NCBI RefSeq assembly: GCF_000423065.1
Contig: NZ_KE383973.1
Span: 95,141 to 159,140 of the forward strand
DNA length: 64,000 nucleotides
Direction: 5' to 3'
DNA from: Christiangramia echinicola DSM 19838
GTDB taxonomy: Bacteria > Bacteroidota > Bacteroidia > Flavobacteriales > Flavobacteriaceae
In this document: positions 9,166 through 64,000 of the stretch, piece after piece
Layout of the letters: the number at the start of each line of letters is the position of its first letter
How positions within the stretch are numbered: the stretch's first letter is position 1
Notes under the pieces: model-generated
Databases searched by the model: none
Told to the model about the DNA's origin: nothing
Seen by the model: only the letters and a program-made list of their open reading frames with translations
Translations under genes and position numbers: made by a program

Positions 9166-12100
9166 ATGGAACAACAAAATCCCTATAAACCTAAAAATAA
9201 AATAAGAATTGTAACTGCCGCTTCGCTTTTTGACGGGCATGATGCAGCGATCAATATAATGCGTCGAATCATTCAGGCAACCGGAGTTGAGGTAATTCAT
9301 CTTGGCCATGATCGTAGTGTTGAAGAAGTCGTGAATTGCGCGATTCAGGAAGATGCACAGGCTATAGCCATGACCTCTTATCAAGGTGGGCATACAGAAT
9401 ACTTCAAATATATGTATGATCTGCTAAATGAAAAAGGTGCAGCACATATCAAGATCTTTGGAGGTGGAGGAGGAGTGATCCTTCCTGAAGAGATCAAGGA
9501 ATTGATGGATTACGGGATAGACAGGATCTACTCGCCAGATGATGGTAGGGAAATGGGTCTGCAGGGGATGATCAATGATATGATCAAACGAGTAGACAAT
9601 GAGGTTCCAGATCTTAAAAATTCAGATAAGGTTTCTGAGAACCTGAAGAAAAAAGATGTAAATACTATTTCCAGGCTAATATCACTTGCCGAAAACAGAC
9701 ATGAAGAGTTTGATAAATTCTTTGATAAAGGATCTTTTGAAACTGCGACTACCCCAGTTCTTGGGATTACTGGTACTGGAGGTTCAGGAAAATCAAGTTT
9801 AGTTGATGAGCTAGTCCGCAGATTTCTAATGGATTTTCCAGATAAGCATATTGGGATTATTTCTGTAGATCCATCTAAAAAGAAAACAGGTGGAGCACTT
9901 CTTGGAGATAGAATTAGAATGAATTCTATTAACCATGAACGCGTTTATATGCGTTCACTGGCAACGAGACAGGCGAACCTTGCACTTTCTAAATATGTGG
10001 CTGAGGCAGTAGATGTCCTTAAAGCTTCAGGTTATGATCTTATTATTCTGGAAACTTCTGGAATTGGTCAAAGTGATACTGAGATATTAGATCATTCTGA
10101 TGTTTCACTTTACGTGATGACGCCGGAATTTGGTGCCGCTACTCAGTTGGAAAAGATCGATATGCTTGATTTTGCAGATCTTGTAGCGATCAACAAATTT
10201 GATAAACGAGGAGCACAGGATGCACTAAGGGACGTTAAAAAACAATACCAGCGTAATCACCAGTTATGGCATTCAGATGCTGAAACACTTCCTGTTTTTG
10301 GAACCATCGCATCTCAATTCAACGATCCGGGAATGAATACTTTATATAAAAGTATCATGGATGAGGTTGAAGAAAAGACCAGGTCCGGACTTTCCTCAAC
10401 TTTCGAAATTTCGAAAGAAATGAGCGAGAAGATCTTTGTGATCCCTCCAAAACGTACCCGTTACCTTTCTGAAATTGCTGAAAATAATAGGGGTTATGAT
10501 GAAAAAGCGAATTCCCAGGTTGATGTGGCGCAAAGACTTTATGGTATTTTCAAAACCATTGAAACTGTTGCCGGCATCAAAACTGAATTCGGACAGGATC
10601 AACATAAATATTTAAGCAAGAATGGAATAGATCAAGATGAGATCTATGAAGTAGCTGAGGATTCTCAGTCTGACTTTCTAAAGTTGCTTTTTGCTGAATT
10701 CGACAAGATCAAAATGGATCTTGATCCTTATAACTGGGAAATGATCCTGGCCTGGAACGATAAAGTAACAAAGTACAGGGATCCTGTTTATAGCTTTAAA
10801 GTTCGCGATAAAGAAATTAAAATAGACACTCATAGTGAGTCTTTATCCCATACTCAAATTCCTAAGGTGGCCTTACCTAAATATAAGGCTTGGGGAGATA
10901 TTCTATTATGGTGTCTTCAGGAGAATGTTCCTGGTGAATTTCCATATACCGCAGGATTATATCCTTTTAAAAGAACTGGAGAAGATCCAACAAGGATGTT
11001 TGCTGGTGAAGGTGGACCAGAAAGAACAAATAGAAGGTTCCATTACGTAAGTGCTGGACTTCCAGCAAAACGTCTTTCTACAGCGTTCGATTCGGTTACA
11101 CTTTATGGTAACGATCCAGATCACCGTCCAGATATCTATGGTAAAATTGGTAATTCAGGAGTATCTATTTGCTGTCTGGATGATGCCAAGAAATTATATT
11201 CTGGTTTTGATCTGGCAGATGCGATGACTTCGGTTTCCATGACCATAAACGGTCCTGCGCCTATGTTGCTTGGGTTTTTTATGAATGCGGCGATAGACCA
11301 GAACTGTGAAAAATATATCAAGGAAAACGGACTCGAAGATAAAGTAGAAGCTAAGCTGAAAGAACTTTATGATGATAATGATATAGATCGTCCCTCTTAT
11401 AAAGGTGATCTTCCGGAAGGGAACAATGGTCTGGGATTAATGTTATTAGGATTAACCGGAGATCAAATATTGCCAAAGGATGTTTATGAAAAGATAAAGG
11501 CTGAAACTATCAGCGTGGTTCGTGGAACGGTTCAGGCAGATATTCTTAAAGAAGATCAGGCCCAAAATACCTGTATTTTCTCTACTGAATTTGCTCTAAG
11601 ATTAATGGGTGATGTTCAGGAATATTTCATCGAAGAGAAGGTAAGAAACTTCTATTCCGTTTCCATTTCAGGATACCATATCGCTGAAGCGGGAGCAAAT
11701 CCAATTACGCAGCTGGCTTTTACCCTGGCAAACGGATTCACTTACGTGGAATACTACTTAAGCCGTGGAATGGATATCAATAAATTCGGGCCGAATTTAT
11801 CTTTCTTCTTTTCTAACGGGGTAGATCCGGAATATGCTGTAATTGGCCGTGTAGCCAGAAGGATCTGGTCTAAAGCACTTAAACATAAATATGGTGCGAA
11901 TTCTCGTGCTCAAATGTTGAAGTATCATATCCAGACTTCAGGTAGATCATTACATGCTCAGGAGATAGATTTTAATGATATTAGAACTACGCTTCAGGCA
12001 CTTTATGCGATCTACGACAATTGTAATTCACTGCATACAAATGCTTATGATGAGGCCATTACAACTCCTACAGAGGCTTCAGTAAGAAGAGCAATGGCAA

Positions 12101-44788: not shown

Positions 44789-45466
44789 ATGCAAAGTTTT
44801 TCTGATTTTATTAATGAATTGACGATAGGCTTCACGCCGGTAATAGGAGGGGAGTATAAGAATGAGGATTACGCTTATATAGATCTTTCAGAAAATAATA
44901 GAGATCTACTAAGATTAGAGGTTGCTTCTTCGGAAGCATTTTCCATATTCATAGGGGAGTTCCTGAAGAATAGAAAGGCGAAAGCTGCCTATGGAGGATA
45001 TAATGAACTACGCACCCTTTACAACCGGAGCGAATTATTCAATAATACTGAAGCTAATCGTAATATACATATAGGCCTTGATGTCTGGGTTCCTGCCTTT
45101 TCTGATATTATAAGTCCGTTGTCGGGTACAATCCATAGCTTCAGGGATAACGATAATTTTGGCGATTACGGGCCAACCATCATCCTGGAACATTTAGAAA
45201 AAGGGAGAACTTTTTTTACGCTTTATGGACATCTCTCGCGCAATTCACTAGTAGATCTAAACGAAGGTGACGAAGTGAAAGCGGGTGAAAAGATAGCCGA
45301 GCTTGGAGATTTTGATGAAAATGGTGATTATGCACCACACTTACATTTTCAGATCATGGAAAATATGAAAGGTATTACGGGTGATTTTCCCGGAGTGGTA
45401 AAAAAAGAAGATCTGGACAATTATTTAAAGAACTGTCCAGATCCTAATTTGTTACTGAAGATTTAA
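44789..45466 (+). CDS. M23 peptidase family protein without signal peptide
   Basis: The 225-residue protein ends in a LytM/M23 metallopeptidase domain: H94-x3-D98 (HIGLD), YGH148 and H184-L-H186 (PHLHF), all zinc and catalytic residues present. The first 85 residues are unlike the usual M23 partners. There is no signal peptide or membrane helix, so either it stays inside the cell or leaves by another route; cytoplasmic M23-like domains exist in Bacteroidota beside other enzymes. It follows the sigma operon by 38 bases. Confidence 0.78.
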   Translation: MQSFSDFINELTIGFTPVIGGEYKNEDYAYIDLSENNRDLLRLEVASSEAFSIFIGEFLKNRKAKAAYGGYNELRTLYNRSELFNNTEANRNIHIGLDVWVPAFSDIISPLSGTIHSFRDNDNFGDYGPTIILEHLEKGRTFFTLYGHLSRNSLVDLNEGDEVKAGEKIAELGDFDENGDYAPHLHFQIMENMKGITGDFPGVVKKEDLDNYLKNCPDPNLLLKI

Positions 45467-45744
45467 AGATTATTAAGTCAGGTTTCAACGTCACCCTGAA
45501 TTTATTTCAGGGTCTTTATGTAGAGATGCTGAAACAAGTTCAGCATGACGTGTTTAAGATGAGATTCTTGATTACGAAACTTTTGTCATTTCGAAGAAGC
45601 AAAGCGACTGAGAAATCTCTTAGGAGTTTTACTGTATATTATTTAAAATTCTTTCACATCAGATTTCTCCCGATGGTCGAAATGACCTAAGTGGTGTAAA
45701 AAGTACTGTCATTTCGAAGAAGCAAAGCGACTGAGAAATCTACC
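45467..45744. repeat. Palindromic repeats on one side of the GIY-YIG gene (elements A and B)
   Basis: Element A (45489-45629) contains a three-way-junction-like unit: outer arms CGTCA/TGACG (45489-45550) enclosing hairpins ACCCTGAA/TTCAGGGT and TGCTGAA/TTCAGCA, then GTCATTTCGA...GAGAAATCTC. Element B (45661-45741) is AGATTTCTC and TCGAAATGAC paired with GTCATTTCGA and GAGAAATCT. B ends 3 bases before the GIY-YIG stop codon. Confidence 0.85.
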
Positions 45745-46041
45745 TTATAAAATGTCTCTTTCTAAAAACTGCCACTCAGGATTAAAGTCCCCGATCAAAT
45801 TTAATTTCTTTTCTCTTCTCCACTTCTTAATCGTTTTTTCTCTGATTATAGCTTCAGATGCATTGTTGAACTTTTCGAAATATATGAGATGATAACAATT
45901 GTACTTACCTGCAAAAGAAAGTTTTGAATGGACGCTATCCCTGTAATGTTGATCTAGCCGAATGTTTAGGTTATTTGTAATTCCTATATATAGAACTGAC
46001 CTTTTTTCATTAGTGACGATATAAACAAAATAATCTTGCAT
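45745..46041 (-). CDS. Solo GIY-YIG endonuclease domain protein
   Basis: The 98-residue protein consists only of a GIY-YIG nuclease domain of the YhbQ/UPF0213 type. The core is VYI (residues 6-8) and YIG (18-20), followed by NIRLDQH with the catalytic Arg, and REKTIKKW with the metal-binding Glu; all are intact. The gene has no core-gene partner. It is bracketed by two near-identical 80-bp palindromes lying within 3 bases of its start and stop codons, suggesting gene and repeats move or duplicate together. Confidence 0.85.
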   Translation of the reverse strand: MQDYFVYIVTNEKRSVLYIGITNNLNIRLDQHYRDSVHSKLSFAGKYNCYHLIYFEKFNNASEAIIREKTIKKWRREKKLNLIGDFNPEWQFLERDIL

Positions 46042-46410
46042 ATCAGATTTCTCCCGTTGGTCGAAATGACCTCATTAATTAAAGTACTGTCATTTCGAAG
46101 AAGCAAAGCGACTGAGAAGTCTCCTGGGTTTTACTTTTAAATCTTTCAAAATTTTTAGGTAACGTTGAATTTATTTCAGGGTCTATATGTAGAGATGCTG
46201 AAACAAGTTCAGCATGACGTGTTGAAGATGAGATTCTTGATTACGAAACTTTTGTCATTTCGAAGAAGCAAAGCGACTGAGAAATCTCTTAGGAGTTTAT
46301 ATTAAATTCTGAAAAAGCTTAATTTTAGTTTTAGTCGTCACCCTGAATTTATTTCAGGGTCTCACATTTGAACTACTGAATCCAGTTTAGCATGACGAAC
46401 TTCATATGTT
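46042..46410. repeat. Palindromic repeats on the other side of the GIY-YIG gene (B', A' and a third unit)
   Basis: B' (46045-46122) copies B, differing at few positions outside the stems. A' (46161-46298) copies A in the same orientation, including non-palindromic spacer (GATTCTTGATTACGAAACTT). A further CGTCA...TGACG unit is at 46336-46397. No gene is seen in this stretch. Confidence 0.85.
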
Positions 46411-46887
46411 TTATTTTTTCTTCACAAAATATGCAACTATAGCCGAGGTAACAACACCAACCACAAGAGCAAAGAAAAAAGACTGGATTACATAAGAAGT
46501 TAGATTAAAATATTCTTCTGCTGCTTCCTGGGTCATAGCACCACTTTCAACTGAATAAGCTATCACATTGTCAAAATAATCTGGCGTGATAAATTCATGA
46601 GTTACATATTGAGCCAGGGGTGATAAAATAGCTACTACAATGCTTATCACAATCCCCGAAATGAATCCCTGAGTCCAGGTCATTGTTCCGTTAAAATAAT
46701 TCTTACGTTTATCCAGTAACGCCAGGACATACAGTGCAATAGCAATTATTGCAAAGAAATTGGTATAAATTGCGTGTTGGGCTATGTTCTCATCATGCCA
46801 TCCCAGGCCTTTTTCCAGGAACATCCAAACAAGAGATACAAGGCTGAAGATGATCCCCCATTTAATTTCAATAGAATACTTTTTCAT
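46411..46887 (-). CDS. DUF4199 membrane protein
   Basis: The 158-residue protein has four membrane helices. KWGIIFSLVSLVWMFLEK at the start, WTQGFISGIVISIVVAILSPLAQYVTHEFITPDYF near residue 75 (quoted in part: GFISGIVISIVVAILSP) and a final FFFALVVGVVTSAIVAYFVKKK are typical of DUF4199, an uncharacterised inner-membrane family of Bacteroidota. It lies between the repeat cluster and the DUF6249-like gene. Confidence 0.82.
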   Translation of the reverse strand: MKKYSIEIKWGIIFSLVSLVWMFLEKGLGWHDENIAQHAIYTNFFAIIAIALYVLALLDKRKNYFNGTMTWTQGFISGIVISIVVAILSPLAQYVTHEFITPDYFDNVIAYSVESGAMTQEAAEEYFNLTSYVIQSFFFALVVGVVTSAIVAYFVKKK

Positions 46888-46952
46888 TGGTTTGATTGAT
46901 TGGTTTGAATGTTAAAATTAGCAAAATAAGTTTATAGCGTATTAAAAAATAA

Positions 46953-46986
46953 AAAAGACCGTCTGAAAAAGTTTTTCAAACGGTCC
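46953..46986 (-). terminator. Terminator after the DUF6249-like gene
   Basis: On the minus strand GACCGTTTGAAAAA pairs imperfectly with TTTTTCAGACGGTC and is followed by TTTTTTATTTTTTAA, 27 bases past the stop codon of the gene at 47012. Confidence 0.8.
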
Positions 46987-47011
46987 TGTGATGAAATTCC
47001 TAAAAAGTAGA

Positions 47012-47362
47012 TTATGCGTCTTCGTTCAATTTTTTTGTGGCGAAGAACCCGGCGAATAATCCCAGACCTGCTAAAAGAAAAATCGTTCCCGGGTATGCTA
47101 CCTCATCATCTACACCCATATTCATTACGAGTAAATTGGCAATAAAAATCCCAATACCTATTCCAGCAAGTAATAAAGCCAGATTTAAAACAATAACTTT
47201 CCAGATGGGAGTTACATGTTTCTTTTTGCTATAAAAAATACTTGCGTCTGCTCCTTTATCTATAAGAGCAAGACGTTCCCGATTCCTAGCGGAAATGTAT
47301 AGATAAAATATTCCGAAAATTGTTCCGAAAATGATTGGTAATACAATGACTTCTGATCCCAT
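47012..47362 (-). CDS. DUF6249-like small membrane protein
   Basis: The 116-residue protein has three hydrophobic segments (VIVLPIIFGTIFGIFYLYIS; VIVLNLALLLAGIGIGIFIA; GTIFLLAGLGLFAGFFAT), with a basic loop containing RNRERLALIDKGAD between the first two. That RxRLALIEKG-type loop is the mark of DUF6249-like proteins. It is transcribed divergently from a sigma-factor gene across 138 bases and may be linked to its regulon. Confidence 0.7.
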   Translation of the reverse strand: MGSEVIVLPIIFGTIFGIFYLYISARNRERLALIDKGADASIFYSKKKHVTPIWKVIVLNLALLLAGIGIGIFIANLLVMNMGVDDEVAYPGTIFLLAGLGLFAGFFATKKLNEDA

Positions 47363-47500
47363 GATTTCTTAGTTTTTAATGTGAAAATAATGTTCGTTTG
47401 CTATTAGGACGCCACGAGTACCAGACCGGTTACAAAAAAGCGTAAATTTATTTTGAAACTTTTTGTAACCGACCATCGATTAGTGTCGTCACAGTACATA

Positions 47501-48088
47501 ATGATCAAAAACTCTGACCAATATTTAATAGATAAAACTCTGGAAGGAGATACCAGCGCCTTTGGAGAGCTGGTAGATAGGTATCAGAATTTTGTGTACA
47601 CCATTGCGATCAGGATTTTAAAGGTTAGTGAGGAAGCTGAAGAGGTTGCACAGGATAGTTTTATAAAGGCTTATGATTCTTTGAAAACATTTAGAGGAGA
47701 TGCGAAGTTTAGCACCTGGTTATACAGGATCGTTTACCATAAGAGTTTAGACAGGGTTAAGATGAATAAACGTCATAGAGCGTATGAGATTAATGAAGAG
47801 ATCACAGATGATAGTTTAAATCATATTGAGAATGGACTGGAATTCATGCTAAGTGAAGAAAGGACCGGGATTATTAAAAGATGCATTTCAGAATTACCTG
47901 CAGAGGATGCAGTGATCATTACCTTATTTTATTTTGAAGAACAATCTGTGAAAGAGATCTCAAAAGTGACAGATCTTACAGAAGACAATATTAAAATTAA
48001 ATTGTATCGTAGCAGGAAGAAGCTATTTTCGTTATTAGAAAGCTACATCAAACCAGAAATATCAGACAGAAATGGAAAAGCAATTTAA
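47501..48088 (+). CDS. ECF-type RNA polymerase sigma factor
   Basis: The 195-residue protein carries sigma region 2 (FGELVDRYQNFVYTIAIRIL, VAQDSFIKAYDSLKTF, KFSTWLYRIVYHKSLDRVK) and region 4 (LPAEDAVIITLFYFEEQSVKEIS plus HTH). ATG 47501 gives the usual N-terminus; an in-frame TTG at 47453 adds 16 residues with no family support. The start of the following anti-sigma-like gene overlaps by 17 bases, copying the design of the other sigma operon at 42.2 kb. Confidence 0.9.
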   Translation: MIKNSDQYLIDKTLEGDTSAFGELVDRYQNFVYTIAIRILKVSEEAEEVAQDSFIKAYDSLKTFRGDAKFSTWLYRIVYHKSLDRVKMNKRHRAYEINEEITDDSLNHIENGLEFMLSEERTGIIKRCISELPAEDAVIITLFYFEEQSVKEISKVTDLTEDNIKIKLYRSRKKLFSLLESYIKPEISDRNGKAI

Positions 48089-48467
48089 CAAGGAAGACCG
48101 GCTGATGAAAAGCTTGCTGAATGAAGCAGGAACTGAAAAGCCGTCAGGAGACTTTAAAAGTCGAATAATGATGAAGGTGGAGGCTAGAAATGCGGAGATC
48201 AAACCTTATAAGCCTCTTATTTCAAAATCTGTCTGGTGGACCATAGCGGCAGTATTTGCTATTACCAATATAGGAGTATTTTATATGAATTCAGACATTT
48301 CTTTTGCTGGTTTTACCAGTTACCTGGATTTCGAATTTCCGCATCTTTTTGATATGCCTAAGATCAATCTTTCCAGAACTATGCAATATGCAATTGCCTT
48401 TGTAGCGCTGTTCTTTTTACAGGTTCCTTTTTTGAAAAGGTTTATGGACAGGGAGTATAGGTTGTAA
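48072..48467 (+). CDS. Putative anti-sigma factor, membrane protein
   Basis: This 131-residue protein has about 55 cytoplasmic residues (MKSLLNEAGTEKPSGDFKSR is a motif seen at the start of small flavobacterial anti-sigma-like proteins) and two membrane helices (SVWWTIAAVFAITNIGVFYM and MQYAIAFVALFFLQVPFL). The overlap with the sigma gene supports an anti-sigma role; no direct evidence for binding is visible. Confidence 0.65.
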   Translation: MEKQFNKEDRLMKSLLNEAGTEKPSGDFKSRIMMKVEARNAEIKPYKPLISKSVWWTIAAVFAITNIGVFYMNSDISFAGFTSYLDFEFPHLFDMPKINLSRTMQYAIAFVALFFLQVPFLKRFMDREYRL

Positions 48468-48520
48468 GGAATTAACCGAAGATTAGTACGATAATCAAAT
48501 TGTGATTAAATTTTTTTTAA

Positions 48521-48578
48521 TGTCACCCTGAACTTAATTCAGGGTCTCGAAATAGATGCTGAACCAAGTTCAGGTTGG
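48521..48578. repeat. CCCTGAA hairpin unit before the first tandem GIY-YIG copy
   Basis: TGTCACCCTGAA...TTCAGGGTCTC followed by a TGCTGAA...GTTCAGG arm. It is a diverged form of the 62-bp CGTCA...TGACG unit. Confidence 0.75.
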
Positions 48579-48598
48579 TAAAAAGAGGAAGTTGTAGC

Positions 48599-48615
48599 AC
48601 TGAGCCTGTCGAAGT
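48599..48615 (+). repeat. Left 17-bp inverted repeat of GIY-YIG copy 1
   Basis: ACTGAGCCTGTCGAAGT lies 19 bases before the GIY-YIG ATG. It is the exact reverse complement of 48951-48967. With its flanks (GC...GC) it also forms its own hairpin GCACT/AGTGC. Confidence 0.9.
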
Positions 48616-48634
48616 GCATTATTGACGGATAATT

Positions 48635-48937
48635 ATGAAATTCTATTTCGTTTATATTCTTAAGTGCAGTGATGCTTCTTACTATGTAGAGATGACTTCT
48701 AATTTGGGAGAGAGAATGAATCAGCATAATGCCGGGGAATTTCCGGAAGCGTATACATATAAAAGAAGACCAGTGAAGATGTGGATAGAACAATTTACAG
48801 ATCCTAAATTAGCATTAGATCAGGAAAAACAAATCAAAGGTTGGAGCAGAAGAAAGAAAGAAGCTTTAATAAAAGAGGATTGGGAAAAATTTAAAGAGTA
48901 TTCTAGAGATTATACTCAATTCGGCAAACCAGATTGA
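48635..48937 (+). CDS. GIY-YIG nuclease copy 1, with altered YIG motif
   Basis: The 100-residue protein is about 90 percent identical by eye to the copy at 49241. The GIY motif is VYI (6-8). The YIG motif, YVG in copy 2, is YVE here: Gly19 is changed to Glu. The catalytic Arg (GERMNQHN) and metal Glu (DQEKQIKGW) remain. One Leu codon is missing near residue 48 (VKMWIEQ against VKLMWIEQ), so the frame is kept. The gene lies between perfect 17-bp inverted repeats. It may be catalytically impaired. Confidence 0.8.
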   Translation: MKFYFVYILKCSDASYYVEMTSNLGERMNQHNAGEFPEAYTYKRRPVKMWIEQFTDPKLALDQEKQIKGWSRRKKEALIKEDWEKFKEYSRDYTQFGKPD

Positions 48938-49240
48938 AAATTCAAACCGGACTTCGACAGGCTCAGTCCTGCATTTAGTTTGAGAAAAACACTCTATATC
49001 AATACTTAACTAAGGACCGATTTAATTATTTAAATTAATTTTAGGAGAATAACCTCACCCTGAACTTGATTGAGGGTCTTATGATAGATGCTGAATCAAG
49101 TTCAGCATGACGGTTTATGATCAACCTCACCCTCAATTTATTTAAAGATCTCTATATGTGATGCTTATTTAAGTTCAGGATGGTAAAAAAGAGGAATTTG
49201 TAGCACTGAGCCTGTCGAAGTGCTTAGTTGACGGATTATT
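48938..49240. repeat. Repeat-filled spacer between the two GIY-YIG copies
   Basis: It contains the right 17-bp inverted repeat of copy 1 (48951-48967), a CGTCA-type unit (49053-49112), a degenerate unit (49123-49184), and the left 17-bp repeat of copy 2 (49205-49221). The unit from one GIY-YIG gene to the next is 606 bp. No other gene is seen. Confidence 0.85.
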
Positions 49241-49546
49241 ATGAAATTGTATACGGTTTATATTCTTAAGTGCAGTGATGCTTCTTACTATGTAGGGATG
49301 ACTTCAGATTTGGGAGAGAGAATGAATCAGCATAATTCGGGTGAATTTCCGGAAGCGTATACATATAAAAGAAGACCAGTGAAGTTGATGTGGATAGAAC
49401 AATTTACAGATCCTAAATTAGCATTAGATCTGGAAAAACGAATCAAAGGTTGGAGCAGAAAAAAGAAGGAGGCTCTTATAAAAAAGGATTGGGAAAAACT
49501 GAAAGAGTATTCTAGAAATTATACTCAGTTCGGCAAACCAGATTGA
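49241..49546 (+). CDS. GIY-YIG nuclease copy 2, intact motifs
   Basis: The 101-residue protein has VYI (6-8), YVG (17-19), GERMNQHN with the catalytic Arg, EAYTYKRRPVKLMW and DLEKRIKGW with the metal-binding Glu, all expected of UPF0213-type solo GIY-YIG nucleases. It is the intact member of a tandem duplication with the gene at 48635. Perfect 17-bp inverted repeats lie 19 bases before the start and 13 bases after the stop. Confidence 0.87.
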   Translation: MKLYTVYILKCSDASYYVGMTSDLGERMNQHNSGEFPEAYTYKRRPVKLMWIEQFTDPKLALDLEKRIKGWSRKKKEALIKKDWEKLKEYSRNYTQFGKPD

Positions 49547-49760
49547 ACATTCAAATCGGACTTCGACAGGCTCAGTCCTGCATTTAGTTTGAGAAAAACA
49601 CTCTATATCAATACTATCAATACTTAGTTTAGTACCGATTTATTTATCGGCTTTAATTTTAGGAGAATAACGTCACCCTGAACTTGATTCAGGGTCTTAC
49701 GAAAGATGCTGAATCAAGTTCAGCATGACGGTTTTAATATGATTTCATTTAGACGGAATA
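49547..49760. repeat. Repeats after GIY-YIG copy 2
   Basis: The right 17-bp repeat ACTTCGACAGGCTCAGT is at 49560-49576, followed by spacer copied from after gene copy 1 and a full CGTCA...TGACG unit at 49671-49730. Confidence 0.85.
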
Positions 49761-49763
49761 AAG

Positions 49764-49796
49764 AAAGTCCTGAAGCTATGAACTTCAGGACTTTTT
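49764..49796. terminator. secA terminator
   Basis: AAAGTCCTGAAG and CTTCAGGACTTT form a 12-bp perfect stem with a 7-base loop, 25 bases after the secA stop codon. T-rich runs are on both sides. Confidence 0.85.
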
Positions 49797-49818
49797 AATT
49801 TTATAATATATCTAATGT

Positions 49819-58834: not shown

Positions 58835-60246
58835 GTTTTGTAGTGTCGGTTATGTGTTATCCGTTCCAGGGTCAAAAGTACGAACTAAGAATTATCAATT
58901 GATAATTGAAAATGGATAATTGTGCAGGAGTTATTGGCTTTTAGGTTAATGTGATTTCGACCACTTCGACTCCGCTTAGTGAAGGCGCCGTAAGAAATCT
59001 CAATGGAGTGAGCAAAATTATTGAGATTTCTCAGTCGCTGTGCTCCTTCGAAATGACAGTTACAATGAAGAATTAGCAATTGTGGGTGGTGTGTTTTCCG
59101 TTGTTGGTTATAGATAAGTTGAGAGGCTGAAACGAGTTCAGCATGACGTTTAAGTGGTGCGTCACCCTGATTTTATTTCAGGGTCTCTTTTTGGTTCTGA
59201 TTAGAGATGAGATTTCTCACTTCGCTACGCTTCGTTCGAAATGACAACAGCAATTGGCATTTATCAATCAACAATGATCAGTTTAGGTTGTTTGGTGTTT
59301 GTTGTTTGTGGTTTGGATGACAGGATGAGATTTCTCAGTCGCTGTGCTCCTTCAAAATGACAGTTACAATGAAGAATTAGCAATTGTGGGTGGTGTGTTT
59401 TCCGTTGTTGGTTGTAGATAAGTTGAGATGCTGAAACGAGTTCAGCATGACGTTAAAGTGGTGCGTCACCCTGAATTCATTTCAGGGTTTCTTTTTGGTT
59501 CTGATTAGAGATGAGATTTTTCACTTCGCTATGCTCCGTTCGAAATGACAGCAGCAATTTTTATATAACAATAAACAATGATCCGTTCAGGTGGTTTGGT
59601 GTTTGTTGTTTGTGGTTTGGATGACAGGATGAGATTTCTCAGTCGCTGTGCTCCTTCGAAATGACAATTACAATGAAGAATTAGCAATTTGGGGTTATAC
59701 CTTCTCAATTGTCTGTTATGGGTTTTGATTCTTTATGCTGAATCTGTGGATGAATGTTAGTTGTCACTCTGAGTGCAACGAAGAGTCTCTTAATAAACGG
59801 CGTTTATTTCTTTTTGATTTTTCAATTGATCACTATTCGGTTGTTTGTATGAGATTTCTCAGTCGCTCTGCTCCTTCGAAATGATAGTTACAATGAAGAG
59901 TTAGCAATTGTGGGTGGTGTGTTCTCCGTTGTGGGTTATAGATAAGTTGAGATGCTGAAAAGGTTCAGCATGACGATTAAATATGAACGTCACCCTGAAT
60001 TTATTTCAGGGTCTCTTTTTGGTTCTGATTAGAAAAGAGATTTCTCACTGCGCTTCGCTTCCTTCGAAATGACAATTCCACTGAGTAATAATCATTAATC
60101 AATTATCAGTTTAGGTTTTCTGTTTTGTGTTTCGGGTGCATTGGTTATTTTTTTAAATGGGATGCAGGACTATGGATAAATATTTATTAATCCTTAGATG
60201 TATTAAGAGTTAGGGAAATAGAGTACCGGTTTGTTTCAGGAGGAAA
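58835..60246. repeat. Repeat-dense intergenic region
   Basis: About 1.4 kb hold no credible gene. At 58993-59004 and 59020-59031 there is a 12-bp perfect inverted repeat AGAAATCTCAAT / ATTGAGATTTCT. From 59023 a composite unit of 304 bp repeats (59023, 59327, and partly 59631), built from GAGATTTCTC...CGAAATGAC, TGCTGAA...TTCAGCATGACG, CGTCACCCTGAA...TTCAGGGTCTC and a G/T-rich stretch (TTGTTTGTGGTTTGG). Another diverged unit runs from 59851 to about 60110. Confidence 0.85.
59023..59693 (+). repeat. 304-bp composite tandem repeat (two units plus part)
   Basis: Units begin at 59023, 59327 and 59631 with GAGATTTCTCAGTCGCTGTG and keep the same internal order over the whole unit. The first two differ at scattered positions only. 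Related, more diverged units occur at 59851, about 62955 and 63396. Confidence 0.85.
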
Positions 60247-60435
60247 TTATTTAAATATTTCCTCTATTTCTGAAGTGGATAGTCCGGTATAATTACAGAA
60301 TTCCTGCAAAGATATGAACTGCCCGGGCTGCTTACGCAGATCGGTTTTTATTTTTCTCAATAAGCGTCGCGAGTAGGTTTCACTTCGGCCGGTTAGAAGA
60401 CAAACATCTGCAGGGTAAATACAAATCCTTTTCAT
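60247..60435 (-). CDS. Small conserved helical protein
   Basis: The 62-residue protein MKRICIYPADVCLLTGRSETYSRRLLRKIKTDL...FISLQEFCNYTGLSTSEIEEIFK looks like a small helical DNA-binding or regulatory domain. The order YP-x-DV-x-x-(I/L)TGRS...LL-x-KI-x-x-L...F(I/V)...EFC-x-YTG is a pattern I recall from many short Bacteroidota proteins, without a known function. It has no close gene partner and is surrounded by repeats. Confidence 0.65.
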   Translation of the reverse strand: MKRICIYPADVCLLTGRSETYSRRLLRKIKTDLRKQPGQFISLQEFCNYTGLSTSEIEEIFK

Positions 60436-61130
60436 CTTTAATAATTTAGGTTAATTACAAGAGAGGGGGTAGGGCGATATCTTGTTTAGCTAATTTATAT
60501 AAAATCAATGGATTGCAGTCAGGGGATTTTTCCGGTTTATGGTTTTTTAATAGTGTCTATTGTGTGTTTTGGGTTTTCAGTTTGTGGTTTGGGGTTTGCC
60601 TGTTAGGATGGGATTTCTCACTTCGCTGCGCTCGTTCGAAATGACAGTTTCAATGATCTATCAGCCGTTTTGGGTTATTTGTTCCCAATAGTTTGTTGTG
60701 GTTTAAGTTTTATGAGAGAATTATCAATCGCTATGCTTGTTCAAGATGACGAGTTTATCATTTGCCATACTGAGCCTGTCGAAGTATGAGCAAGAGCGAT
60801 TAGCGTTTATCAATTAACAATTATCGGTTTAGGTTGATTGTTGTTTGTGGTTTGTAGTTTGGATGGCAGGATGAGATTCCTCTCTTCGCTGTGCTTCTTC
60901 GAAATGAGGACAGCAATTAGTATAAGTGAATTAGTACTTAACAATGATCATTTATTTAGGGTTTTTCTGGTGAAAAGGGAGGGCTGATCCTTCGACAAGA
61001 TCAGGATCTTTAGACTTAGTATTTAAAATGATCCAGTGAGCATTATTGACTGGGATGGAGTTTTTATCTTAAGCTAGCGAAGGACTGAAATAGAGAGAAA
61101 GCATAGGGAAGATATAGGGAAGGTATAGAT
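60436..61130. repeat. Repeat-rich gap between the 62-aa gene and the DUF6266 gene
   Basis: No gene is seen. It holds scattered CGAAATGAC arms (for example near 60635 and 60898), G/T-rich segments (TTGTTTGTGGTTTG near 60840) and the hairpin CATACT-gagcctgtcga-AGTATG at 60766-60788. A related CTGATC...GATCAG stem is near 60984. Confidence 0.75.
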
Positions 61131-61182
61131 ATACCTGCTATGAGGTAGCGTATTTACTGATGTTTTCCGAAATGTTAGTCGG

Positions 61183-61277
61183 TCAAAATAGACAGAAACG
61201 ACCATTCTGGTACAAAACGTTCAGTAATTAACAAAATGGACTAAAACAGCCAGAATGGAGCAATTCAGCCAAAATGA
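61183..61277 (+). repeat. Five short iteron-like motifs upstream of the DUF6266 gene
   Basis: TCAAAATAG (61183), CCATTCTGG (61202, reverse orientation), ACAAAATGG (61231), CCAGAATGG (61250) and CCAAAATGA (61269) share the core CCAaAATGg. The copies at 61202 and 61250 form a perfect 9-bp inverted repeat. They may be regulator binding sites. Confidence 0.45.
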
Positions 61278-61310
61278 TAGTCAGGGTTTCCGGGAATGAA
61301 AAGAGCCATT

Positions 61311-61318
61311 TAGATTTG
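61311..61318 (+). promoter_or_regulatory. Possible -7 element for the DUF6266 gene
   Basis: TAGATTTG fits TAnnTTTG and lies 30 bases before the ATG, directly downstream of the iteron-like motifs. Confidence 0.35.
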
Positions 61319-61348
61319 AAAATTATTAATCAATTAAAACCATAAAAA

Positions 61349-62098
61349 ATGGCAAGAAACAACGGTATTTTAAAAATTGAGGGAACCCTCCAGGATCTGA
61401 CCTTTTATAAAGGGCAGGACGGTTACCTTGTGAAAACAAAGAGTGGCGTTTCGCGCAAGAGGATTCTACGGGACCCGGCATTTGCAAGAACAAGAGAGAA
61501 TTTAGCGGAGTTTACGGACAGTGCGAAAGCCGGCAAAATGCTGCGGCTGGCAATGAATGAACTTATGCAGCAAGCCAAGGACAACCGGGTTACCAGCAGG
61601 CTCATGCAAAAGATGTCCGGTATTCAGAAGCTGGACAGCGTAAATTTACGTGGAAAGCGCACGGTACAGCAGGGTCTGACCACAGAAGAAGGGAAAGCAT
61701 TGCTGGAGAACTTTAACTTTAATGAGCGTGCACCGATGGAGTCGATACTGCTGGCGCAGTATAACGTGGATGAACAAAACGGGGATATCAGTATTGCAGG
61801 ATTTATCCCGGGATTGAATCTGTACAAACCTGAGGGCGCAACCCATGTAAGCCTGAGGTCAGCTTTTATCTCGGTTAATTTCAGCACCGGAAAATTTTCG
61901 GGAGGGGTGAGTCCGGCAGAGAACCTGATCATTGATATGAGCAAGACAGATGTCTTACTTGTACCCGACAGTGTTCCCAGTGGAGCGGGAAATGTTTTTA
62001 TCCTGTTACTTGTAGAGTTCTATCAGATGGTGAACAACACGCAGTATCCTTTACGAAACGGAGCGCATAATTCGCTAAGTATACTTAGTGTAGGTTAA
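61349..62098 (+). CDS. DUF6266 family protein
   Basis: The 249-residue protein starts MARNNGILKIEGTLQDLTFYKGQDGYLVK, the DUF6266 pattern (short beta segments ending FYK...DGYLVR). It goes on with a helical stretch RENLAEFTDSAKAGKMLR and a beta-rich C-terminal half (GATHVSLRSAFISVNFSTG...). There is no signal peptide and no recognised catalytic motif; the role of the family is unknown. The coding DNA is clearly richer in G+C than the surrounding repeats. The gene is isolated, with repeats on both sides and five iteron-like motifs upstream. Confidence 0.82.
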   Translation: MARNNGILKIEGTLQDLTFYKGQDGYLVKTKSGVSRKRILRDPAFARTRENLAEFTDSAKAGKMLRLAMNELMQQAKDNRVTSRLMQKMSGIQKLDSVNLRGKRTVQQGLTTEEGKALLENFNFNERAPMESILLAQYNVDEQNGDISIAGFIPGLNLYKPEGATHVSLRSAFISVNFSTGKFSGGVSPAENLIIDMSKTDVLLVPDSVPSGAGNVFILLLVEFYQMVNNTQYPLRNGAHNSLSILSVG

Positions 62099-62445
62099 AA
62101 GATGAAGCGGGATTTTTTATTAACCCTGTCCGAAAGGATGGAGGTTTTTTGTTTATGGTTTTGTTTTATGTTGTCTGTTGTGGGTTCTGGGTTCTGGGTT
62201 CTGGGTTTCCTGTGAAGTATTTATGAATTGGAATTTAGAAGGAGATTTCTCAGGCACTCTGCTTCTTCGAAATGACAAACAAATCTGTTGTTCATTTTTA
62301 TATGACCGTTAGTTGTTACTCTTAGTGCAACGAAGAGTCTTTTAATATACGGGGTTAGCTTCTTTTGTACTCTTTTGATCACTATTCGAATGTTAGGATG
62401 AGATTGTTCACTTCGCTGCGTTTAAAATGAATATTTATTTTTTGC

Positions 62446-62468
62446 CATACTGAGCCTGTCGAAGTATG
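62446..62468. repeat. CATACT...AGTATG hairpin
   Basis: CATACT and AGTATG enclose GAGCCTGTCGA. Same element as 60766-60788; variants at 63184-63206 and 63740-63762. The GIY-YIG-flanking form has GCACT/AGTGC stems around the same loop. Confidence 0.8.
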
Positions 62469-62528
62469 AGCAAGTTCGATTAGCGTAAGGAAGATTTTCA
62501 GAGAAAGAAGATTTCTTTTTACTTTTTC

Positions 62529-62716
62529 TTTTTCCTTGATGAAAAAGAAACAAAAGATCAAGGCTTACGAAAGTTTTCCTGATTTTATAGCTTAGGATCT
62601 AAATTTTAGGAACTCGCCTTCCAATGTTCAGGATATTAAAAGCTTTCTAGTTGGCTCAAACAGCCTAAAATTTGACGATCCTCTCACTTCAAAATCTATG
62701 GAAATCTTTCGATAAG
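62529..62716. repeat. Dispersed hairpin element, copy 2
   Basis: TTTTTCCTTGATGAAAAAG, GGCTTACGAAA, then GGATCTAAATTTTAGG / CCTAAAATTTGACGATCC around a longer loop, then TTTCGATAAG. Copy 1 is at 55411-55572; its stem ends are GCACC/GGTGC, here GGATC/GATCC, so both copies keep pairing. Confidence 0.8.
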
Positions 62717-64000
62717 TTTGGATTCTTAATTATTATCTATAGAGTGTTGAGATGCTGAATCGAGTTTAGCATAAAAGTTATGTAGGGACGTCACCTTGAA
62801 TTTATTTCAGGGTCTCTTTTTGGTTCTGATTAGAAAAGAGATTTCTCAGTCGTTGTGCTCTTTCGAAATGACAGCAGCAATTTTTATATATCAATAAACA
62901 ATGATCCGTTTAGGTGGTTTGGTGTTTGTTGTTTGTGGTTTGGATGGTAGGATGAGATTTCTCAGGCGCTCTGCTCCTTCGAAAAGACAATTACAATGAA
63001 GAATAAACAATTGTGAGGTGGTGTGTATTCCGTTGTGGATTATAGATAAGTTGAGATGCTGAAACGTGTTCAGCATGACGAATAAATATGAACGTAACCC
63101 TGAATTTATTTTAGGATCTCTTTTTGGTTCTGATTAGAAAAAAGATTTCTCACTTCGTTCGAAATGACGAATTTAATATTTGCCATGCTGAGCCTGTCGA
63201 AGTATGAGCAATAAACAATGATCAATTAGCAATTTGGGGTTAACCTTCTCCTTTGTCTGTTATGGGTTCTGATTCTTTATCTTGAATCTGTGGATGAATG
63301 TTAGTTGTCACTCTGAGTGAAACGAAGAGTCTCATAATAAACGGGATTAGCTTTTTTTTAATTTTTTCAATTAATCACTATTCGGATGGCAGGATGAGAT
63401 TTCTCAGTCGCTATGCTCCTTCGAAATAACAATTACAATGAAGAATTAGCAATTGTAGGTGGTGTCTTCTCCGTTGTGGGATATAAATCTTCTGAGATGC
63501 TGAAACGAGTTCAGCATGACGTTAAAGTGGTGCGTCACCCTGAATTTATTTCAGGGTCACTTTTTGGTTCTGATTAGAGATGAGATTTCTCACTTCGCTG
63601 CGCTCCGTTCGGAATGACAACAGCAATTGGTATTTATTAATTAACAATGATCAGTTTAGGTTGTTTGTGGTTCGTAGTTTATAGGTGGTAGAATACTCAC
63701 ATCGCTACGCTTCGTTCGAAATACAAATTTACCATTTGCCATATTGAGCCTGTCCAAGTATGGGCAACAGCAATTAAACTTAGACACTTATCAATGAGCA
63801 TGGATCTAATTATCAAAAGGGGAAGGTGCTGTAATAAGTTCAGTATGAGGATTAAAAATAAAAGCCACCTGAATTTAATTCAGGGTCTTTTTAAAGAGCA
63901 CTGATATATCTTTGGAGGTCTTTTCGACCCCAGGGAGAAATCTTTGAATTAAGAAATTAGAAAAGAATTTAAAATTTATATTTCTCTTCCGGGAAAGTTC

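Follow-up and report, generated by a model that had tools for sequence, protein, structure and literature searches.

A solo gene for a GIY-YIG nuclease of clade 1 lies on the reverse strand at 45745-46041 of the window (the whole stretch of 64,000 nt analysed here, C4:95141-159140 in its genome), in an intergenic site between two convergent genes. It is the only clade-1 gene that we found in the 3.51-Mb genome. Its product of 98 amino acids has a single GIY-YIG domain (PF01541, E = 4.1e-17, residues 4-81) and no others, and neither Pfam nor NCBIfam above its cut-off revealed a second DNA-binding domain or module. Residues Y7, Y18, G20, R28, H32, E68 and K72, positions with catalytic roles in the GIY-YIG superfamily, are invariant among 70 aligned sequences. 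The AlphaFold2 model (70 sequences) has a pLDDT of 94.1 and a pTM of 0.85, and a fold search with it against the PDB gave 1zg2 (UPF0213, E = 4.3e-4) as the top and sole match below 0.001; Slx1 entries came next at 0.004-0.05, UvrC was also among the matches and I-TevI was a weak one. A sequence search of the PDB with the same protein returned no matches. Judged from its sequence and modelled fold, the product is a minimal single-domain GIY-YIG protein of the UPF0213, or prokaryotic Slx1-like, kind, with predicted nuclease activity.

A sequence-only reading of this DNA had proposed that the gene is fitted between repeats, and this is the case: the inner elements at 45661-45741 and 46045-46122 lie 3 nt from the stop codon and 3 nt from the start codon, respectively. 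The same reading described these elements as palindromes of 80 bp. Repeats are indeed present on both sides, but they are not simple palindromes; each is a head-to-head dimer of two non-identical hairpin repeats of 34 nt (long) and 26 nt (short), of the form GTCATTTCGA..GAGAAATCT, which we call class 1. On the stop-codon side the long monomer (45708-45741) adjoins the stop and is followed by the short one (45661-45686); on the start-codon side the short monomer (46045-46070) adjoins the start and the long one (46089-46122), which deviates from the exact motif by a single base, lies outside it. Both dimers (reverse strand) read from long to short in the direction of the gene and are therefore direct repeats of each other. 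This order is kept wherever both sides of a gene are readable (the window and genomes G006, G010 and G003), so that the unit consists of the gene between two dimers in direct orientation. All 14 different class-1 dimers with the exact motif in the sequences analysed are of the long/short type (33-39 + 26 nt, 14-28 nt apart), and the tandem clade-3 genes of this genome have the same dimer-gene-dimer arrangement built from class-3 repeats. Besides head-to-head dimers, clusters of repeats in the same orientation occur.

Outside the inner dimers stands a pair of direct repeats on the forward strand (45483-45629 and 46152-46298), which at 147 nt each and 95% identity are slightly longer than the roughly 140 bp first noted. 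They are mainly of class 3, GTCACCCTGAA..TTCAGGGTCT facing GTCATGCTGAA..CAGCATCT, plus one class-1 monomer: the left copy holds a class-3 dimer (about 45490-45549) and a class-1 long monomer (45585-45618), the right copy a partly degraded class-3 dimer and a class-1 long monomer (46254-46287). An extra class-3 dimer, partly degraded, lies beyond the outer repeat at 46337-46396 (forward strand). Of the nested order A-B-gene-B-A suggested earlier, only B-gene-B is the unit; A consists mainly of repeats that go with another GIY-YIG clade present in this genome.

These repeats follow one plan, that is a GTC head, a stem opening with an A-T pair, a loop, the stem again and a tail of C followed by T or C, often in head-to-head dimers. 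In the window, the copies have C, T or G before GTC. Class 1 has two A-T pairs in a stem that is interrupted after 5 bp, and comparatively long loops; class 3 has an 8-bp stem with C-G as its second pair and a loop of 5 nt. Classes 1-7 have the GTC head; classes 1-4 and 6 end in a CT tail, and class 7 alone in CCA. When folded as single-stranded DNA and compared with shuffles, one class-1 dimer gave a z of -4.8 (0/200 as good) and the other -2.3 (5/200), the class-3 dimers of the outer repeats gave -6.7 (left) and -3.6 (right), and class-1 monomers alone folded no better than shuffles (-0.8 and +0.5). A known RNA family was rejected as an identity for these elements: the Rfam search of 45400-49800 gave no match over the gathering threshold.

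The class-1 motif (GTCATTTCGA N4-20 GAGAAATCT) occurs in 33 copies in the genome versus 0 for the reversed control. Solo GIY-YIG genes of the genome belong to clades 1, 3 (at C1:780 kb, two in tandem, one with TAG), 6 (at C5:58.4 kb) and 8 (in the window, at 48635 and 49241). A search of the window for seven repeat classes, class 5 being left out, found classes 1, 3, 6 and 8 and none of classes 2, 4 and 7; exact class-4 and class-7 motifs are absent from the whole genome. Pairs of clades 1, 3, 6 and 8 reside together in this genome, each apparently with a stem of its own. The two clade-8 genes, both on the forward strand, form a tandem duplication about 606 bp apart with blocks 92-94% identical, flanked by inverted ACTTCGACAGGCTCAGT repeats of class 8, which lack the GTC head in the window. 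In the first gene (48635-48937) Glu replaces the invariant Gly of YIG, so this copy is probably inactive; the repeats around it (48593-48615 and 48951-48973) have 23-nt arms that are 91% complementary. The second gene (49241-49546) is a copy of the first with the motif intact, between repeats at 49199-49221 and 49560-49582. The window also contains a mosaic repeat island at 59025-63557 with classes 1, 3, 6 and 8 interleaved and no GIY-YIG match; its composite units are partly tandem, and an ORF lies inside it at about 61350-62097.

That repeat and nuclease form one unit, as had been supposed from the window, finds support in its relatives, many genomes of which have such repeats beside GIY-YIG genes; the early possibility that the palindromes never accompany these genes elsewhere does not describe what we see. 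The loci comprised 30 of the genus, 80 named ones from a scan, at least 30 from 41 family genomes (one of these loci being the window's own) and 60 stretches hand-picked from the genus and family tables. They yielded 224 unique GIY-YIG ORFs, 203 of which, near full length, were kept and 21 dropped as short, and an HMM score of 75, a division of our own choice, separated 173 closer relatives from 30 members of another solo GIY-YIG class. Under a strict rule set after inspection of 30 loci (GTCA, a perfect stem of at least 5 and a T-C end), a hairpin lies within 150 bp of a gene end in 135 of the 173 closer relatives, at both ends in 87 and nowhere nearby in 38; for the second class, in the same genomes, the count is 2/30. 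Exclusion of loci L001-L040, the source of the rule, leaves 107/141, and further exclusion of L075-L154 leaves 31/60; with only the latter, clade-7-rich loci excluded, the figures are 59/92 and, for both ends, 39/92. Hairpin density is 9.7-11.5 per kb at 0-50 bp from the gene versus 0.27-0.46 at 800-1400 bp and 0.06 in shuffles, which preserve single-base composition only. The repeats are also polar, since the nearest one within 60 bp turns its tail toward the gene in 81/87 upstream and 89/98 downstream cases. As a separate observation, the second short solo class forms tandem arrays in Flavobacteriaceae, often near contig ends (L221, L203, L196, L217, L226, L227 and others), and three copies of it stand at 304-bp spacing in G049.

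The class of the repeat co-varies with the clade of the protein. Protein identity and repeat-arm distance are correlated with a Spearman coefficient of -0.66 (0/500 permutations as strong), in a test that sequence kinship inflates; related sequences are not independent, so the p-values overstate. Between genomes, the same arm (0-1 mismatch of 8) is shared by 99-100% of pairs at 70% protein identity or more, by 3-5% of those at 30-50% and by 11% of the 57 pairs below 30%. A test of 45 genes from 16 genomes, in which every named locus stood for a separate genome although a few come from the same one, asked whether a gene's repeat resembles more that of its closest relative in another genome or those of its paralogues: the foreign repeat was nearer in 35 cases and the paralogous ones in 8, with 2 ties. 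As the repeat matches its own branch of the enzyme family in many relatives, repeat and enzyme seem to function as a pair, and their cognate pairing is well supported.

Gain and loss tell a similar, if less strict, story. The convergent DUF4199/M23 site is readable in 21 of the 22 genomes with DUF4199. In eight, a clade-1 gene or pseudogene is accompanied by class-1 repeats, and in three a clade-2 gene by class-2 repeats, to which one of the three adds a single class-1 repeat; a further one (G023) has class-2 repeats and no gene, four have a clean gap of 24-32 bp, and five have other content without class-1 or class-2 match. At this site a gene mostly comes with its matching repeats, and both tend to be missing together. 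The sequence-only reading had set against its cassette idea a gene in a fixed place without the repeats; this conserved site has class-1 repeats only where it has a clade-1 or clade-2 gene or pseudogene. The presence of a clade-1 gene or pseudogene at the same site in 8 genomes of the genus marks it as an old accessory insert here and not a fresh hop. Four genomes have empty sites, but the intergenic sequence has diverged too far for exact insertion ends or a target-site duplication, the hallmarks of an insertion sequence or MITE, to be placed.

The genus is probably Gramella/Christiangramia, the protein of locus L036 (in genome G009 of this genus) having a 100% identical counterpart in Gramella jeungdoensis (L075). 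Across the genus, 17 of 24 genomes have a match to the clade-1 protein of the window (E 1e-6), and all 17 have the exact class-1 motif in 3-42 copies; among the seven others, two of which are drafts 67% and 90% complete, six lack the motif and one has 5 copies (Fisher p=5e-5). The contrast in copy number between the carriers of a clade-1 gene or pseudogene (9/24) and the rest is weak (p=0.03), some non-carriers having up to 37 copies. The class-7 motif is found in 2/24 genomes as a single copy each, beside the clade-7 gene in G009 and about 1.2 kb from a truncated one in G004. Class-4 repeats are found in genomes without a clade-4 gene by protein search, most clearly in G009 with 37 copies; together with the class-2 repeats without a gene in G023, this means that presence of gene and presence of repeat are not strictly coupled. 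Arrays of class-4 repeats with a spacing of about 93-96 bp were noted at G009:C20:4222-5896 and 9646-9960.

Homologues in other phyla are accompanied by hairpins as well. The strict hairpin lies within 300 bp in 12 of the 13 loci examined, including those of MAGs named Ignavibacteria, Dadabacteria, Cloacimonadota, Zixibacteriota, Kuenenbacteria and Elusimicrobiota. From a plasmid collection, 11 of the 33 records with a homologue were examined under a looser hairpin rule, and 10 of them have a GTC hairpin within 176 bp (N. gonorrhoeae, Planktothrix, Photobacterium, Aeromonas, Azospirillum, Rhizobium, Shinella, Novosphingobium, Spirosoma and Sphingobium); the S. meliloti homologue has no convincing GTC hairpin nearby under that rule. 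At the Neisseria, Azospirillum and Planktothrix loci, the rule that the tail faces the gene breaks down on one side or on both. In N. gonorrhoeae, a dRS3-type repeat lies 6 nt from the first base of the stop codon, with its head toward the gene, and the protein is 38% identical to the clade-1 protein of the window over 93 columns and 48% identical to the clade-7 protein of G009. We take this homologue beside dRS3-type repeats to be Ssn, a widespread GIY-YIG family that reportedly cuts single-stranded DNA at the NTS repeats of Neisseria.

Some of these records deserve a remark of their own. The Planktothrix plasmid homologue (L245) is located between a type IIL restriction-modification gene and the DISARM gene drmA, and so in a defence island. 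Two entries classed as plasmids (L244 and L247), one of 2.2 Mb from Neisseria and one of 4.9 Mb from Aeromonas, are likely mislabelled in the public collection, and a contig of a 'Nitrotoga' MAG (L140), whose GIY-YIG protein is nearly equal to that of Flavobacterium paronense (L144), likely has a label error too. A phage origin was rejected, as only 2 phage records were found, at 38% identity.

We consider it quite probable that the nuclease and its flanking hairpin repeat are a cognate pair whose action is hairpin cleavage. The substrate of the GIY-YIG nuclease would be the hairpin repeat that flanks its own gene, and the enzyme would recognise its own repeat class when the strand is single and folded, be it on the lagging strand, in incoming DNA or in an extruded hairpin, and would nick the folded repeat at a fixed place. 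Judging by what is reported of the Neisseria homologue, nicking of its own repeat as a single-stranded hairpin is the likely activity. Host recombination might then act on the nicked, repeat-bounded DNA, by which the repeats and the dimer-gene-dimer unit would be copied, tandem-amplified or lost. Such nuclease-driven propagation of repeats and gene via host recombination is a tentative proposal, to which we would give somewhat less than an even chance.

The nuclease might instead serve the host, cutting incoming or exposed single-stranded DNA at the repeats and so tuning natural transformation and recombination near repeat-marked genes, with the repeats spreading in some other way. Cognate specificity fits this reading equally well as propagation, and what is reported of Ssn and NTS in Neisseria speaks for it. 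So does the N. gonorrhoeae homologue beside its dRS3-type repeat, dRS3 being equated with CGTC-1 in PMC3733652. The repeated loss, visible in the 4 clean empty sites, and the pseudogenes of G001 and G004 suggest no essential host role, and the coexistence of several parallel pairs in a genome is more readily understood if they are selfish lineages; neither point is decisive, and we regard a host-serving modulator as possible, if rather doubtful.

A homing-type selfish gene, with the nuclease cutting gene-free repeat sites and repair copying the gene in, seems improbable to us. The 33 exact class-1 monomers of the genome go with one clade-1 gene, so copying into empty sites must be rare, if it happens at all; the cognate repeats abut both ends of the gene and are not split by it, and the second DNA-binding domain is missing from the searches, the ground on which a homing endonuclease was rejected. 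It is true that GIY-YIG is a homing-endonuclease fold, of which I-TevI is the weak match mentioned above, that empty sites exist, and that the gene lies between two direct-orientation dimers of its own target class as if inserted into or next to a dimer. Very improbable is mere coincidence, with intergenic repeats serving to terminate transcription or stabilise mRNA and GIY-YIG genes just happening to sit in repeat-rich spots: the position between convergent genes would suit it, REPs being mostly downstream of genes according to PMC3733652, but it leaves unexplained the match of protein clade and stem (on which chance or terminator hairpins were rejected), the start-side repeats of fixed polarity and the rarity of repeats around the other solo GIY-YIG class.

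The preferred reading, a cognate nuclease-repeat pair, invites comparison with the REP/RAYT systems (REPtrons), in which GTAG REPs are coupled to a Y1 transposase, and the comparison already drawn from the window alone is apt. Repeat dimers flanking a small nuclease gene, dispersed genomic copies and the matching of enzyme and repeat type are common to both. The enzyme here is a GIY-YIG protein, not an HUH/Y1 one, and the head is GTC, not GTAG. A profile search of the genome for Y1_Tnp (PF01797) gave 0 matches, and a RAYT as hidden partner was rejected on this basis. We read the present system as one that may work like REP/RAYT with an unrelated enzyme.

A second comparison is with the CGTC class of REPs, which Di Nocera et al. 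(2013, PMC3733652) describe as apparently without a dedicated transposase, with hosts that include Bacteroidetes and G. forsetii and with the dRS3 of Neisseria as a member. Their description there is of an unpaired CGTC (or TGTC, CCTC) head, a stem of 8-9 bp whose first two pairs are A-T, a loop of 4-5, a CCA tail and a predominance of head-to-head dimers. Our repeats are alike in the GTC head, the A-T pair that opens the hairpin, the tail starting with C and the head-to-head dimers; class 1 differs in its CT tail, in the interruption that follows its 5-bp stem and in its longer loops. By these features our repeats fall within the CGTC REPs or close to their edge. In the passages of PMC3733652 consulted we found no mention of GIY-YIG, and among the open-licence papers listed none links GIY-YIG nucleases to REPs. 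Our data point to one enzyme family as the partner of a REP class that in 2013 seemed to have none.

On the enzyme side, Dunin-Horkawicz et al. (2006, PMC1564403) cite UPF0213, or prokaryotic Slx1-like, proteins as predicted DNA-repair enzymes, and their main text, so far as covered, does not contain 'palindrom'. The clade-1 protein resembles them as a stand-alone minimal domain with 1zg2 and then Slx1 as top fold matches, and differs in the role suggested for it here. From homing endonucleases it is set apart by an intergenic gene that is not in an intron, an intein or a host gene and by the lack of a DNA-binding module in our searches. A wider proposal, to which we give an even chance, is that the whole CGTC REP superfamily has its missing dedicated enzymes in the UPF0213-type GIY-YIG nucleases. 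Each clade, across phyla, would recognise and propagate its own stem, with several independent pairs per genome; the pairs would have arisen in parallel to RAYT/GTAG REPs from an unrelated fold, and the mobile unit would be an asymmetric dimer, the gene and another asymmetric dimer in direct orientation, open to tandem amplification. The match of protein clade and hairpin stem is code-like, and the parallel pairs of one genome are natural sets for tests of specificity. Should cleavage of single-stranded hairpins prove to be clade-specific, these enzymes would also provide sequence-specific cutters of single strands.

The nearest known relative is the Ssn/NTS system of Neisseria. It has in common with the present locus a small GIY-YIG protein, adjoining GTC-headed hairpins and repeats in many genomic copies. 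The stems are different; in the present genome four nuclease clades go with four repeat classes and the gene lies between two direct-orientation dimers. The clade-1 pair is probably a Bacteroidota branch of the Ssn/NTS kind. The general idea was probably already opened by the work reported on Ssn in Neisseria; what the present data add is the co-variation of enzyme and repeat, the polarity of the repeats, their gain and loss jointly with the gene among Bacteroidota, and a connection with the CGTC class.
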